Source: a bacterium (GTDB lineage: Bacteria; SZUA-182; DTGQ01). Taken from it: a stretch of DNA of 13,889 bases. This document shows positions 4,758-10,882 of this stretch, in pieces. The translations under genes and the position numbers were made by a program. Location of the stretch: contig JAILZY010000087.1 of the NCBI GenBank assembly GCA_023512255.1, forward strand, positions 1 to 13,889, in the 5' to 3' direction. Numbering within the stretch: the stretch's first letter is position 1; the number at the start of each line of letters is the position of its first letter. The notes beneath the pieces are model-generated. The model had not been told where the DNA came from. It saw only the letters and a program-made list of their open reading frames with translations, and made no database searches.

Positions 4758-4769
4758 AGGAGGAGAAGG
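4758..4769 (+). promoter_or_regulatory. Ribosome binding site that fixes the beta-helix start
   Basis: AGGAGGAGAAGG at 4758-4769 is a near-ideal Shine-Dalgarno sequence, with AGGAGG ending nine bases before ATG 4773. It argues for this start over the in-frame ATG at 4626. Confidence 0.85.
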
Positions 4770-4772
4770 TTT

Positions 4773-7244
4773 ATGAGAGAAAAACTAGGTGCATTTTTAA
4801 TATTATTTTTTGCAGCTTTTCAGCTTATTATGGCCACCACCTGCCTGGCTAAGGTTATCAGAGTGGCAAAAAGCGGCGGAGACTACACCAGCATTCAGGC
4901 AGCCATCAATGCCGCCTCGGCTGGAGACACAATCGAGGTCGGCCCTGGGGTATACAATGAAAACATCACCATCAACAAAAACTTAGACCTGATCGGAGCA
5001 GGAGCGACCACCTGGATTCCGCAGCCTCCCCTCTCAGGCGGCATTGCTCAGATTGAGCCCGGCATTTTGATTGCCAAGTATCCAATCACCAAGCCGCCCT
5101 TACCCGATCCCCCGCCGGAAATTTTTAATCCCACAGAAGTCTTCAATCCTACATTAGGATTAAATATCAGAGCCAGAGATGACCTGTCCCTAATCAATCT
5201 GCCAACAATAAATCTGCCAACTACCATAACCCTACCAGGCTCAATCCTGCAACCTTCACCTATTATTCAGCTTCCTGGAAAGGAGATTGACTATCCTGGT
5301 CCTACCAGCAGCCTGGCCGTTAAAATTCCCTCTTATGGATCGCTTTATGCAGGGCCACAGATCTTAATCCCCGGGCAGATAAAGCCTTTTCCGAACGGAA
5401 GCATTATCCAGGGGAAGGGATCAGGGCATGTGGTAACCTTCACCGGTGTCTCAGCCGGCAGTATCCGCGGTTTTACCATCACTAACAGCGGCTCCCAACA
5501 TGCGGGCATCATGCTCTACAACAGCCGCAATCTAACCATTGCCTGCAACCGACTGTCCAAGAATAAGGATGGGATTGTAGCCTCTTCCTCTTCGGCTATT
5601 GTCCGCAATAATGTATTCGATGAGAATGGCTTTAGTGATAATTCACTCTGTGATTACGGCCTATGCTGTCTGAAATCGACCCTCTCTATTACCAATAACC
5701 TGGTCATTAACCAGGAAGTCGGCCTCTATATAGCTTGGGAGGAGTCAAGCGGCACGGCCATAATCAATAATACCATCACCGGCAACCGCTATGATGGAGT
5801 CTGGTGTTATCGCTCTTCGCCGGTGATCAAAAATAATATCATTACCCAAAACGGCTATGGCATCTGCGCCATATACAGCGCGGCTCCCGAAATTTCCTAC
5901 AATGACGTCTGGGGAAATGGGCAGGACTATAATCAGCAAACAGGCGGCCTAGCCGCACCAGGCCCCGGGGATATTTCCGCTGATCCGCTGTTTGTCAATC
6001 CTGATGAGGGAGACTATCACCTTGATCTTCTCTCACCTTGCATTGATGCAGGTGATCCGAATCCGATCTACAACGATCCTGATGGCAGCAGAAATGATAT
6101 GGGCCTCTACGGCGGCCAGGGAGGCTCTCTTGGGACTCCCGCAGGCCAGGAAAGCGGCTTTGTTTTTACTGACATTGGGCTCATTCCGACCGCGGCTATT
6201 CCTCAGGATCAAGATGATCCATCCTTTGGGCTGGCTAAGGTTAGTCAAACTATGGCTGAAAAGCTGAGAATCCCTCAGTGGGTAGATTCTCCTTTCGGAG
6301 GCCAGATCAGGATTTTCGGCCAGTTTGGCCAGCTTGACCAGGTCGATTTCTACCAAATTCTAGCTGCTAGATGGAAGAATAATGATACTACTGCCCCTTC
6401 AGATAGTGATTTTCTTCCGCTTAAGGAGCCTCTAGCCAAGGTAAAGACGACGATTGATGGCGGAAAAGTCAATCATGAAATTGTTACCCTTGGGCCGGTT
6501 GAGCGGGGCGGTTTCTCCTCCCTATACGAATTGAACAAGGGTGAGTGGTGGTCTCAGCCTACGCTTCGCCTGATCTGGAACACCACGGCCTGGCCAAATG
6601 GAAAATATACCCTAAAGTGCAGGGCCTTCAAATGGAACAGCTCGAAAACCGCTCTGATCGACGCTACACCGAGCTCTTCCATCCCCCTGACCATAATTAT
6701 CAACAATAGCCCGCCAGCCGCCCGGATTCACTGGGTTAAGTACAGCTCCAGCAATCCTAACTACGACCCGGCGGTTGATGGCAACATCCCAGAGTGTGGG
6801 TTGATTCACCTTACCCATAACCGCGAAAACTTGCGGTTTGTCATCACTGCCTCACACCCTGAAGGGTATCTTGACTACTTCAACCTTGATTGTCTGTGGG
6901 GCAAGAATAGACCGGGTGGTGTGATCTGCTATCAGAATTATGCCACAGCCACACCCTCATCACCCCACATCTGGTATGGAGTCAGTCAGCAGGAATTTTC
7001 CCTGCCCAGCAGCTTTAATCAGTGGGAGAATTGCGCCTATCAGTTCCGGCTATATGCCCGATCACGGGCCACGGATGGCTATACTCACCTCTATGGAAGA
7101 GAGTTTAACGATCATTACACCATCGAGATTGGCTCTGGCTCAGCCTGCACTTCATCAGGAGTTGCCGGTGACCTCAACAACGATGGCCGAGTAACCATTG
7201 ACGAGTTGACCAGGGTTATCAATGCCTTCCTGGGCAGAAAATAG
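4773..7244 (+). CDS. Secreted right-handed beta-helix protein with C-terminal dockerin-like motif
   Basis: An 823-residue exported protein of unknown substrate. Residues 1-26 are a signal peptide ending near TCLA. A parallel beta-helix begins with VAKSGGDYTSIQAAINAAS, the usual opening of secreted pectate-lyase-fold repeats. It is interrupted at about 80-208 by a Pro/Ile/Leu-rich insert, resumes at IIQGKGSGHVVTF, and closes with the family's end signature (ADPLFVNP at 403-410, then SPCIDAGDP and DMGLYGG). Residues about 450-795 are not recognised, though they include beta-rich, Trp-containing stretches. The C-terminus carries one EF-hand/dockerin-type loop, GDLNNDGRVTIDEL (799-812), with Asp800, Asn802, Asp804 and Glu811. 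A full dockerin has two such loops. Catalytic residues of polysaccharide lyases cannot be assigned, so it may bind carbohydrate, cleave it or be structural. It is first in a likely operon with the cohesin-like gene 20 bases downstream. Confidence 0.88.
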   Translation: MREKLGAFLILFFAAFQLIMATTCLAKVIRVAKSGGDYTSIQAAINAASAGDTIEVGPGVYNENITINKNLDLIGAGATTWIPQPPLSGGIAQIEPGILIAKYPITKPPLPDPPPEIFNPTEVFNPTLGLNIRARDDLSLINLPTINLPTTITLPGSILQPSPIIQLPGKEIDYPGPTSSLAVKIPSYGSLYAGPQILIPGQIKPFPNGSIIQGKGSGHVVTFTGVSAGSIRGFTITNSGSQHAGIMLYNSRNLTIACNRLSKNKDGIVASSSSAIVRNNVFDENGFSDNSLCDYGLCCLKSTLSITNNLVINQEVGLYIAWEESSGTAIINNTITGNRYDGVWCYRSSPVIKNNIITQNGYGICAIYSAAPEISYNDVWGNGQDYNQQTGGLAAPGPGDISADPLFVNPDEGDYHLDLLSPCIDAGDPNPIYNDPDGSRNDMGLYGGQGGSLGTPAGQESGFVFTDIGLIPTAAIPQDQDDPSFGLAKVSQTMAEKLRIPQWVDSPFGGQIRIFGQFGQLDQVDFYQILAARWKNNDTTAPSDSDFLPLKEPLAKVKTTIDGGKVNHEIVTLGPVERGGFSSLYELNKGEWWSQPTLRLIWNTTAWPNGKYTLKCRAFKWNSSKTALIDATPSSSIPLTIIINNSPPAARIHWVKYSSSNPNYDPAVDGNIPECGLIHLTHNRENLRFVITASHPEGYLDYFNLDCLWGKNRPGGVICYQNYATATPSSPHIWYGVSQQEFSLPSSFNQWENCAYQFRLYARSRATDGYTHLYGREFNDHYTIEIGSGSACTSSGVAGDLNNDGRVTIDELTRVINAFLGRK

Positions 7245-7264
7245 GAAGGGAGGAAAGACTAGTT

Positions 7265-8842
7265 ATGAAAAGAAAATTATGCCTCATTCTGACCTTGGTT
7301 TTCACCATAACCTGCGGCTGGCTAGGTGGAAATATTCCAGAGGTAGCGGCACAAGCGAAGGCCGTGAGCATCAATCTGGCCAATGCCAGCGCAGCAGCCG
7401 GCACGACGGTCTTGCTGCCCTTGTTCTTGCAGGCCGCCGGCGCCCAGGTGGGCTCTTTGGCCATTGATATCGGCTTTAATCCCAAGATGCTCCTAAACCC
7501 CTCGGCCAGTATCAATCCAGCTCTTGACGCCGGCTCATCGAGCAGCTGGATATTAATCAGCAACACCCCATCGCCTGGCATCTTCCGGCTGGCCATCATT
7601 CCCAACTATACCGCTGGCCCAAGGATTGACCAATCAAGCACTCTCATTCCAGATGGGCAGGTAGCCACAGTTACCTTTTTGCTGTCTTCGTCTGCTCCTC
7701 CTGGAAGCAAGCTTTCCCTGACCAACACTCCCTCATCCTGTACTCCTAAAGGGGAACTTCTGGCCACCATTGGCCTGGGGGCTGAGATCACGGTCAGCTC
7801 TCAAGTTTCAGTCGAGGAGATTTGCGATGGGAAGGATAATGACGGCGATGGCCAGATTGATGAAGGGCTAAGCCGCCCCTGCTCGACTGCTTGTGGTCAG
7901 GGCTATGAGGTTTGCCGCAATGGGCAATGGGTTGACTGTAGCGCACCTTTGCCCCAACCAGAGATCTGCGATGGGAAGGATAATGATTGTGATGGTCAAA
8001 TCGACGAAGAAGTGCCTTGGAACTTTTATTTTGCGGATCATGACGGCGATGGATATGGGCAGGCTGCCGAGAGTAAGAAGGCTTGCTCTGCTCCTTCTGG
8101 ATATGTCTCAAATAGCGACGATTGTGATGATACCGATAGCCATGTTCATCCTGGTGCTCAGGAGATCCCCTGCAACGGTAAGGATGACGATTGCCAGGGA
8201 GGAGATGATACGACCCGCTGCGGGCAGCAGCAAACTTCAGGAGAGTGTGAGGAGGATGATTCAGGAGATCTGGATATTCAGGGAGCTTTGGGGCAGCCAG
8301 GCCAGGAAGTCAAAATTGGGGTTAGGGTCAGATATGCACCTTCCTCAATCTCGGCCTTTGGGTTCGATGTCCTCTATGATACCTCTAGGCTCAGGTATAC
8401 GGGCTCTGAGAGGGGAAATCTGACCACCTCTTTTCCCCTATTTGAGGTCAATGAGATCGCCCCTGGCCGGGTGAGGGTAGGTGGCCTGAGCCAAAGCCCC
8501 CTCCCGCAGGGAGCAAATGACTATCTGGTCTGGCTGAAATTTATGGTCTTAGGCAGTCAGCCGGGGCAGGGATGCTATTGGCTTGGGCTCGATAATCTGA
8601 TTGATGATCTCGTATTATTTTCTCCCTCTGGCGGCTGTTTCTGTTTTGGGAGAAGCTGCACTGGGGATCAGAATGGCGATGGGAACATCACTCCCCAGGA
8701 TGCCCTGCTGGTCTTTCGCTGCTACCTTGGGCTAATCCAATGCCCTGAGTGTGCTGATGTTGACGGCAATGGAAGTGTTACTCCGGCAGATGCCCTGTGC
8801 CTGTTCAAACGCTACCTAGGACAGCCTTCTTGTTTGGATTGA
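7265..8842 (+). CDS. Secreted cohesin-like / MopE metal-binding / cohesin-like / dockerin protein
   Basis: A 525-residue exported protein. A signal peptide (1 to about 30, ending near VAAQA) precedes a cohesin-like beta-sandwich (about 34-180; AAGTTVLLPLFLQ and VGSLAIDIGFNP). Two MopE-type motifs follow, CDGKDNDGDGQIDE (187-200) and CDGKDNDCDGQIDE (235-248). Next comes a related Asp-rich stretch (about 251-325; DHDGDGYG, DDCDDTDSHVHPGA). A second cohesin-like domain (about 333-460; SAFGFDVLYDTSRLRYTG) and a complete two-loop type I dockerin end the protein: DQNGDGNITPQD (468-479) and DVDGNGSVTPAD (498-509), each followed by an F-helix ending YLG. Many Cys residues suggest disulphides and folding outside the cytoplasm. 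The start has GGGAGGAAA at 7248-7256, and the gene follows the beta-helix gene by 20 bases. The domains imply calcium- or copper-dependent assembly of surface proteins. A scaffold role is inferred; no cellulase is in view. Confidence 0.88.
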   Translation: MKRKLCLILTLVFTITCGWLGGNIPEVAAQAKAVSINLANASAAAGTTVLLPLFLQAAGAQVGSLAIDIGFNPKMLLNPSASINPALDAGSSSSWILISNTPSPGIFRLAIIPNYTAGPRIDQSSTLIPDGQVATVTFLLSSSAPPGSKLSLTNTPSSCTPKGELLATIGLGAEITVSSQVSVEEICDGKDNDGDGQIDEGLSRPCSTACGQGYEVCRNGQWVDCSAPLPQPEICDGKDNDCDGQIDEEVPWNFYFADHDGDGYGQAAESKKACSAPSGYVSNSDDCDDTDSHVHPGAQEIPCNGKDDDCQGGDDTTRCGQQQTSGECEEDDSGDLDIQGALGQPGQEVKIGVRVRYAPSSISAFGFDVLYDTSRLRYTGSERGNLTTSFPLFEVNEIAPGRVRVGGLSQSPLPQGANDYLVWLKFMVLGSQPGQGCYWLGLDNLIDDLVLFSPSGGCFCFGRSCTGDQNGDGNITPQDALLVFRCYLGLIQCPECADVDGNGSVTPADALCLFKRYLGQPSCLD

Positions 8843-8960
8843 TGGGCTTTAGTGGGCGCAAGGAGCTTTTGTCTGACCCATAAGCAGGTGGGCTTTAGAT
8901 GTCTTGCGTGTCCCCATATCGCCGTGTCTCCGTGTCCTCCCATAAGCAGGTGGGCTTTAG
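8843..8960. repeat. Repeated TGGGCTTTAG element after the cohesin-like gene
   Basis: A 22-bp sequence beginning CCCATAAGCAGG occurs identically at 8877-8898 and 8939-8960 (period 62). Its last ten bases, TGGGCTTTAG, also occur at 8843-8852, directly after the stop codon. Between the copies lies CCGTGTCTCCGTGTCC, which resembles the dispersed CTCTGTGTCTCTGTG-type sequence near 12380. Non-coding. Confidence 0.85.
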
Positions 8961-8983
8961 CGCCTTGCCCTAAAAGCTTCAAG

Positions 8984-9021
8984 AAGCCTGGCTGAAGGCA
9001 TTTTCGCTTTCAGCCAGGCTT
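8984..9021 (+). terminator. Strong hairpin terminator of the secreted-protein operon
   Basis: AAGCCTGGCTGAA (8984-8996) pairs perfectly with TTCAGCCAGGCTT (9009-9021): 13 bp around a 12-base loop. It lies about 140 bases past the cohesin-like gene, with an A-rich 5' side and a short T-rich 3' flank (TTTAT). It is the clearest terminator in the window. Confidence 0.8.
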
Positions 9022-9236
9022 TATCATCTAGCATCCCATTTTAAGATAATAAATCCCATTTTAAGACAGACAATTCCCGCACCAATCATCCCAATTGATT
9101 ATGTCGCTTTTTATCTCTAATTAACACTCTTCTAATTACCAATAATAGTACTAAATTTTTCAATGACCTAAGCCTACCGGCCCATTCTGTAAATATTTTT
9201 CAAACCAGGATGGCCTAATAAATGCAGATAAATAAA

Positions 9237-9427: not shown

Positions 9428-10882
9428 ATGAAAATCAAAAAGTTATTTTATTTTTTATTTATTATATTTTTTATTGTTTTCAATTTTGGAAAAAGTATAA
9501 AAAGTGAGGCCTTTCCTGTCGAAAAGATCAAATCAGATAATGAGATTTTAGAATCAGTAAAAAAAATTCTTTTTTTATTCAATCCTAAACTGCGGACTCA
9601 AATTAAATTAGAAGTTCATCAGGGAGTAGTATTTCTTTCTGGAATAATTAATACTCTAAAAGATCAAGAGGAAGCAATCAATATTGTTAAAACAGTTACT
9701 GGTAATGGAGTGATTGACTATTCGATTCTAAATCCCGCAATCTGCCGCGATAAGGATATCAAAGATAATATCTTGGTAGTCTTTTTGGATGATCCTAGCA
9801 TATATGCTCCGGATTTAGGAATCCAAGTGTTGAACGGAGTGGTAACCCTGACCGGATCTGTAGCCAGCGCATGGGAAAAAGAAGAGGCTGTCAATGCTGC
9901 AAAGGGAATTGTGGGAGTTGTCAAGGTAGTTGACCGCCTAAGTATTGATTCCCAAAACAAACGGTTAAGAAGGATGGAGTGGCTGGATATAATCACCACC
10001 ATTTTTGCTCAAGACAGATACCTTTTTGATAATCAGCTTAATATCAAAATTGGTGATAGTCTTGGTGATGGCCGGATTATTGTTCGGGGAGTTGTTGATA
10101 CAGCTATGGAAAAGAGCCTTGTATCCCAAAAAATTTTGGCCCTAGAGATAGGAGAAGTTGATAATCAATTAATAATCGAAAAGAGCAACCAGGGCTATAT
10201 CCAAAAGGCGTCCTTTAATCTCAATGATTCGGAGATTCACCGAGCTATCGATCGCCTTATTTATCTGGATGAAAGGATACATAAGGGGAAAGATATTGTA
10301 ATTCTAGTAGATAATGGAGTTGTTAGCCTTCAGGGCAGGATTGCTAATGACTATGAAAGAGAGATTCTGAAGCAGGATATTCGGAGTGTAGATGGAATTC
10401 TATTCATCAAAGATATGCTAATTACAGACGAGACTTCTCGTGGAGATATGGATATTGTCCAAGATATTAAACGAGCCTTTGGATATGAGCCGGATCTTGC
10501 AGGAGCTGATATAATGATAACTTGTAAGTTAGGAAAAGTTACTTTAAATGGCGAGTTAGATCTTGCTGCCAAAGATTTGGCTGAAAGCCTATTGCTCAGA
10601 GTAGTCGGAGTAAAAGAATTTTCCAATCAGATTCGGATTGTACCCGTATCAGTTTTGGTTAAACCGAAAAATTATGTTGTAAGATCCTCTTCTTCTAACT
10701 TAATTAATTGGAATCTAGAAGTAGAAAATAAATCCTTTCAGATCTGTATAGATAAGGAGAATGAAACAGTAACTATTCGAGGTAATGGGGAAGACCTAAA
10801 GCAAAAAGATAAAGTTGAAGATATTGTAAAGTCTAGGGCTCCGAGTAATTTTCAGATTGTCAACGAAATCGAAATCCCGTAA
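9428..10882 (+). CDS. Exported protein of about six consecutive BON-like domains
   Basis: A 484-residue protein made almost entirely of BON modules, small alpha/beta folds found in OsmY and other envelope proteins that bind membranes or lipids. A Lys-rich start followed by a Phe/Ile-rich core (1 to about 28) is a signal peptide. Modules fall at about 36-102 (GVVFLSGIINT), 108-174 (GVVTLTGSVAS), 182-252 (RIIVRGVVDT), 266-333 (GVVSLQGRIAN), 340-405 (KVTLNGELDL) and, degenerate, 420-484 (TVTIRGNGED). In several, the hydrophobic-x-G strand is followed by a helix and an IVGV- or VDGI-type second strand. OsmY has two modules, so this array is long. The codons are AT-rich, unlike the neighbouring genes, which may mean a different origin. 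An envelope-stabilising or membrane-tethering role is inferred. The ATG has only a weak AAGAAAAGAG (9409-9418) upstream. Confidence 0.85.
   Translation: MKIKKLFYFLFIIFFIVFNFGKSIKSEAFPVEKIKSDNEILESVKKILFLFNPKLRTQIKLEVHQGVVFLSGIINTLKDQEEAINIVKTVTGNGVIDYSILNPAICRDKDIKDNILVVFLDDPSIYAPDLGIQVLNGVVTLTGSVASAWEKEEAVNAAKGIVGVVKVVDRLSIDSQNKRLRRMEWLDIITTIFAQDRYLFDNQLNIKIGDSLGDGRIIVRGVVDTAMEKSLVSQKILALEIGEVDNQLIIEKSNQGYIQKASFNLNDSEIHRAIDRLIYLDERIHKGKDIVILVDNGVVSLQGRIANDYEREILKQDIRSVDGILFIKDMLITDETSRGDMDIVQDIKRAFGYEPDLAGADIMITCKLGKVTLNGELDLAAKDLAESLLLRVVGVKEFSNQIRIVPVSVLVKPKNYVVRSSSSNLINWNLEVENKSFQICIDKENETVTIRGNGEDLKQKDKVEDIVKSRAPSNFQIVNEIEIP

Follow-up and report, generated by a model that had tools for sequence, protein, structure and literature searches.

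A 13,889-nucleotide stretch of DNA (contig JAILZY010000087.1, assembly GCA_023512255.1; hereafter the window) from a bacterium of the GTDB lineage SZUA-182; DTGQ01 carries two neighboring open reading frames (ORFs) on the plus strand. ORF A (P0001, 823 amino acids; window 4773..7244) encodes a beta-helix protein with a lone F-hand loop at its C-terminus, and ORF B (P0002, 525 amino acids; 7265..8842) a protein in which MopE repeats lie between two cohesins (Coh1 and Coh2) and a complete dockerin follows. With a probability of roughly one half, ORF B may serve as an adaptor scaffoldin outside any cellulosome, with ORF A as its dedicated cargo and both joined to a cohesin-dockerin network of the genus. 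The pair is conserved in a sister species, the one other genome of the genus that was compared, and ORF B ends in a cohesin-dockerin tail that recurs on many exported proteins. Neither Coh1 nor the lone loop of ORF A falls into a common class, both being private to this pair.

Domain Content and Conservation of the Gene Pair

The stop codon of ORF A at 7244 and the start codon of ORF B at 7265 are separated by 20 bases, as described in an earlier sequence-only reading of the window. Both orthologs are adjacent in the sister species as well (G001, contig C36:53133-55622 and C36:55643-57211), with an amino acid identity of 75% for ORF A and 65% for ORF B and with an identical 20-bp gap; the adjacency in relatives which that reading had called for was thus found in one congeneric genome. 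Beyond the genus, neither ORF A nor Coh1 had an ortholog among the 40 nearest genomes compared. Both N-termini are hydrophobic and resemble export signals when read by eye, in agreement with the proposed secretion of the pair.

The modules assigned to ORF B from its sequence were confirmed by profile searches. The cohesin profile PF00963 (42.1 bits, two stretches) and the MopE profile PF11617 (58.8 bits) matched above their cut-offs, and Dockerin_1 (PF00404) reached 30.7 bits compared to a cut-off of 22.9 with both calcium loops present in the alignment, which identifies the C-terminus as a dockerin. With cohesin and dockerin on one chain, ORF B has the domain composition expected of an adaptor scaffoldin. 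Coh1 (residues 29-182; 7349..7810) by itself scored 24.0 bits with PF00963, where the cut-off is 24.1, and its ortholog in the sister species 38.4 bits. The best matches of Coh1 among solved structures were cohesins (E 0.055), and in the cohesin tree it was placed outside all common cohesin classes on a long branch of its own; an AlphaFold model made without an alignment was unusable (predicted local distance difference test, pLDDT, 31). Coh1 is followed by acidic, Cys-rich MopE repeats in three stretches (residues 183-318; 7811..8218), a putative spacer, and by the tail-type Coh2 (residues 328-460; 8246..8644), the profile of which matched solved cohesins with E-values down to 5e-9. A model of Coh2 together with the dockerin, likewise made without an alignment, is of low confidence (pLDDT 56), and nearly all of its top 40 Foldseek matches were cohesins. 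The predicted sandwiches are cohesins by profile, and for Coh2 the fold search with this low-confidence model points the same way; the earlier reading was thus refuted neither by the sandwiches nor by the neighborhood in the sister species. The dockerin (residues 465-525; 8657..8839) has two loops and six Cys residues and belongs to the common class A of the genus (113 bits with the class-A profile).

For ORF A, the right-handed parallel beta-helix region (residues ~30-455; 4860..6137) was likewise recognized by profiles, namely PF13229 (E 2e-18), NosD (PF05048; E 4e-15) and TIGR03804. It is followed by a beta-rich module (residues ~456-783; 6138..7121), and residues 589-793 are matched with 27% identity by a protein of another member of the class (G005, contig C179). 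The protein ends in the lone F-hand or half-dockerin GDLNNDGRVTIDELTRVINAFLGRK (residues 799-823; 7167..7241) with the single loop DLNNDGRVTIDE, which had also been noticed from the sequence.

The Lone Loop of ORF A

The C-terminus of ORF A is not classed as a dockerin, since its Dockerin_1 score of 12.3 bits lies below the cut-off, with only half of the profile being covered, and since a second calcium loop is absent from the orthologs of both species. Even at E 1 the class-A dockerin profile of the genus did not detect it. It may still function as a half-dockerin. A comparison of the two species by domain (Nei-Gojobori; synonymous sites are near saturation, so the values are rough) gave a ratio of nonsynonymous to synonymous substitution rates (dN/dS) of 0.075 for the loop, the lowest in ORF A, with 29 of 34 residues identical, compared to 0.25 in the N-terminal portion of the beta-helix. 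The homologue of the last module in G005 ends just ahead of the loop and carries no F-hand. The loop, more constrained than any other part of ORF A and missing from this homologue, therefore has the appearance of an appended, selected tag.

A frameshift or an assembly error was ruled out as the origin of the single loop, since the ORF A ortholog has the identical end point. A C-terminal tag common to the genome is unsupported: outside the dockerins only few scattered calcium-loop patterns occur, and a peptide search matched only complete dockerins and a CotH protein. The calcium-loop pattern on the DNA level is not a product of chance, since it yielded 33 matches in the genome and none in a backward-read control.

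The main rival explanation, which we regard as rather improbable, takes the loop as a structural calcium-binding cap instead of a dockerin; ORF B would then belong to the common network, and ORF A, for instance an adhesin of the cell surface or a beta-helix that binds polysaccharide, would merely be expressed along with it. Such a cap would fit the subthreshold score over half a profile, the lack of a second loop in either ortholog and the dissimilarity of the loop to the other dockerins of the genome, whereas the strong constraint on the loop and its absence from the homologue of the adjoining module argue against it. Besides the points that favor a cap, three further findings weigh against ORF A being the cargo of ORF B. 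Position 12 of the loop is occupied by Glu, in contrast to the Asp of almost every other loop of the set. Among the folded domains of ORF B, Coh1 shows the weakest conservation (58% identity, dN/dS 0.25), the MopE repeats being the most constrained, although rapid divergence can occur in modules that determine specificity. Finally, the pair is carried by two genomes only.

It is also conceivable, if very improbable, that the pair is the degenerating remnant of a complete dockerin/cohesin couple in which ORF A lost half of its dockerin and the interaction is fading. The rapid divergence of Coh1 would agree with such a decay, as would the two beta-helix partners described below, in which both loops are retained. 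A remnant would hardly be expected to show exactly the same truncation in both species together with the high residue identity and the low dN/dS of the loop.

The loop differs at the recognition positions from every complete dockerin of the genome. If it is recognized at all, the private Coh1 is therefore its likelier partner, so that the earlier proposal of a recruitment of ORF A by ORF B stands for Coh1 in this conditional form and not for both cohesins alike.

Adjacent Cohesin and Dockerin Genes in the Genome and in Related Genera

Two beta-helix proteins depart from the common dockerin class: ORF A with its lone loop and a protein encoded on contig C133 (36 bits, IAEYDVGL type). Each of them is encoded directly upstream of a protein that starts with a long-branch cohesin and ends in the common cohesin-dockerin (Coh-Doc) tail. 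Coh1 and the N-terminal cohesin of the C133 protein, a weak match of 19.7 bits, form separate, very long branches in the cohesin tree; the C133 type is duplicated in the sister species. A third beta-helix/dockerin gene, on contig C122, precedes a double-cohesin protein. The beta-helix partners of C133 and C122 retain both dockerin loops, and position and gene order of the pair studied here mirror theirs, which is a further argument against the cap.

In three genera a small single-cohesin gene was found beside a Coh-Doc gene (L171 in G001, contig C61; L187 in G002, contig C119; L189 in G003, contig C227), the Coh-Doc neighbor in G002 being a papain-like peptidase. These neighbors appear to represent an older pair of the same logic. 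Taken together with C133 and C122, they indicate that adjoining cohesin and dockerin genes are a repeated pattern.

A Common Cohesin-Dockerin Tail

With Pfam profiles at E up to 0.1, this genome gave 23 matches for cohesin and 21 for dockerin. At E up to 0.01, 26 cohesins and 31 dockerins were found in the sister species, and seven further genomes of the class had between zero and nine of either kind. The minimal, isolated cassette suggested by the sequence-only reading is thereby rejected: the pair is one node in a set that spans the genus, with some 20-30 cohesins and a similar number of dockerins in each genome. A cellulosome is rejected as well, since no glycoside hydrolase (GH) and no carbohydrate-binding module (CBM) occurred among the 22 proteins of the cohesin/dockerin set of this genome that were scanned (C81, C89 and C116 left out).

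A recurrent element of the set is the Coh-Doc tail, a cohesin with a dockerin 4-8 residues behind it, usually at the very end of the protein. It is present in 29 proteins, 13 from this genome, 14 from the sister species and one each from G002 and G003, and the Coh2-dockerin part of ORF B is one of them. The N-terminal parts of these proteins are diverse and include C25 and papain-like peptidases, VWA domains, beta-propellers with Kazal domains, Lcl_C, alpha-toroids and PKD/HYR arrays; beta-helices are further partners in the scanned set. In the two genomes, nearly all complete dockerins fall into one class (about 90-120 bits with a shared profile, six Cys, consensus TPxDALxxFxCYLG...TPADALCLFxKYLGQPSCLD). 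Tail cohesins make up about half of all cohesins. A separate clade of acceptor cohesins (13 rows in the cohesin tree, support 97/84) is located in proteins without dockerin, among them one that carries two cohesins as well as a lipobox-like signal (LLAGC/LFPGC) and is a candidate for the surface (outer-membrane) anchor of the network.

Some members of the set deserve separate mention. The lipobox-like N-terminus LLAGCAAKTYQDK is found in L157:3854-5755 (contig C134 of this genome) and L170 (contig C18 of the sister species), both with two acceptor-clade cohesins and no dockerin. L153:1490-4156 (contig C122) is a C25 peptidase of the gingipain family with a propeptide and the Coh-Doc tail at its end. 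Another protein (L165, contig C153; L201, contig C13 of the sister species) has a single cohesin and a long C-terminal half rich in Gly, Tyr, Phe and Ser, and is possibly adhesive or fibre-forming. The CotH-kinase-like Coh-Doc tail protein L203:6611-9607 (contig C27 of the sister species) carries, as lone calcium loops, two copies of an insert beginning with WSASPMARDLNNDGQITEEDYTIF.

The co-occurrence of tail cohesin and tail dockerin at a nearly fixed short spacing, each of them nearly one class and the cohesins so numerous, would be expected if the tails were self-complementary. ORF B and all other Coh-Doc proteins would then polymerize into mixed head-to-tail fibres, in which ORF A would form a side-branch or terminate the chain. 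We consider this unlikely: the tail dockerins could in reality pair with the acceptor-cohesin clade of the proteins without dockerin, and characterized adaptors generally combine a cohesin and a dockerin of different specificity (compare PMC4959524). Self-chaining of ORF B by its own dockerin, as suggested earlier, accordingly stays one option, for which the acceptor clade offers an equally good partner.

A Putative Adaptor for a Dedicated Cargo

According to the adaptor-cargo reading, both proteins would be exported and ORF A would act as a surface or matrix protein. Coh1 would hold ORF A by its half-dockerin in a calcium-dependent contact of a single orientation, and the MopE repeats might form a metal-stiffened spacer. 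The C-terminal Coh2-dockerin tail would link the pair to a network built from the same tail on many exported proteins. For this purpose the dockerin of ORF B could enter another tail cohesin or an acceptor cohesin, such as those of the double-cohesin protein with the lipobox; Coh2 could accept the class-A dockerin of another protein.

Each of these steps is plausible in view of known precedents. In Archaeoglobus fulgidus, the dockerin of ORF2375 is complete. The cohesin of ORF2376 and the dockerin of ORF2375 are reported to bind strongly and specifically (PMC9705933), and like the pair described here they are encoded by consecutively numbered ORFs outside cellulosomes; the cargo here differs by its one loop, and the pair is situated within a large network. 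Adaptors with a single cohesin and a single dockerin are known from Ruminococcus flavefaciens (PMC4081043). Such adaptor scaffoldins, including ScaC (PMC4081043, PMC4959524), resemble ORF B in that one polypeptide combines cohesin and dockerin modules and could thereby recruit proteins with a second class of dockerin to a larger complex. In contrast to them, ORF B has MopE spacers and no GH or CBM context in the scanned proteins, and its cohesin and dockerin form a C-terminal dyad shared by proteins of many kinds. Nonduplicated half-dockerins of R. flavefaciens are functional according to the work cited in PMC8063739, which also speaks against the cap. They share with ORF A the single repeat, a likeness in repeat number; the known examples are cellulosomal, whereas the half-dockerin here belongs to a beta-helix protein with an adjoining adaptor.

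Large repertoires of cohesin and dockerin proteins are also known from other uncultured lineages, namely anaerobic methanotrophic (ANME) archaea (PMC9012536) and Ca. Stygibacter with its cellulosome-like system (PMC8542988). They include scaffoldin-like proteins that combine one dockerin with several cohesins, and C25 peptidases with dockerins. In these two studies we found no report of a nearly fixed Coh-Doc tail on more than ten proteins per genome. Adjacent pairs, adaptors with cohesin and dockerin and functional half-dockerins are already known elsewhere; what is new here is the repetition of the Coh-Doc tail together with private adaptor pairs, and not the mere presence of cohesins and dockerins.

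Somewhat more tentatively, we propose that the genus might build a general extracellular exoskeleton from a universal Coh-Doc tail on more than a dozen unrelated exported proteins, and that special cargo might be plugged into it by private adaptor pairs, of which one uses a half-dockerin. If so, this cohesin-dockerin network would be as complex as some cellulosomes without being devoted to plant fibre. Non-cellulosomal cohesins and dockerins are widespread, and the genus represents a compact, testable case with a common connector on many exported proteins and side-by-side candidate plug-and-socket pairs, including one with a putative one-loop dockerin. Its modules could yield new orthogonal connector pairs.

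Flanking Sequences

A Shine-Dalgarno-like sequence AGGAGGAGAAGG is located 5' of ORF A (4758..4769, plus strand) and aligns with GAGGGAGGAAAAGG of the sister species. The spacer between the two ORFs (7245..7264, plus strand) contains the ribosome-binding site GGGAGGAAAG. Downstream of the pair an exported-looking protein with five BON domains is encoded (window 9428-10882), for which no BLAST match was found in the corresponding region of the sister species. Between ORF B and the hairpin described below, a direct repeat CCCATAAGCAGGTGGGCTTTAG occurs twice (window 8878-8960) and is absent from the sister species.

The sequence-only reading had assigned one promoter region and one terminator to the pair. 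A promoter scan of the plus strand upstream of ORF A found no sigma-70-like site, and a common promoter is suggested by the spacing of the two ORFs alone. The terminator part of the assignment is better founded: 3' of ORF B a strong hairpin (8983..9022, plus strand; -32.1 kcal/mol, z -6.9), yet with a weak T-tract, forms a probable terminator, and its positional equivalent in the sister species has a z of -6.5. A downstream MltA gene is also common to both species.

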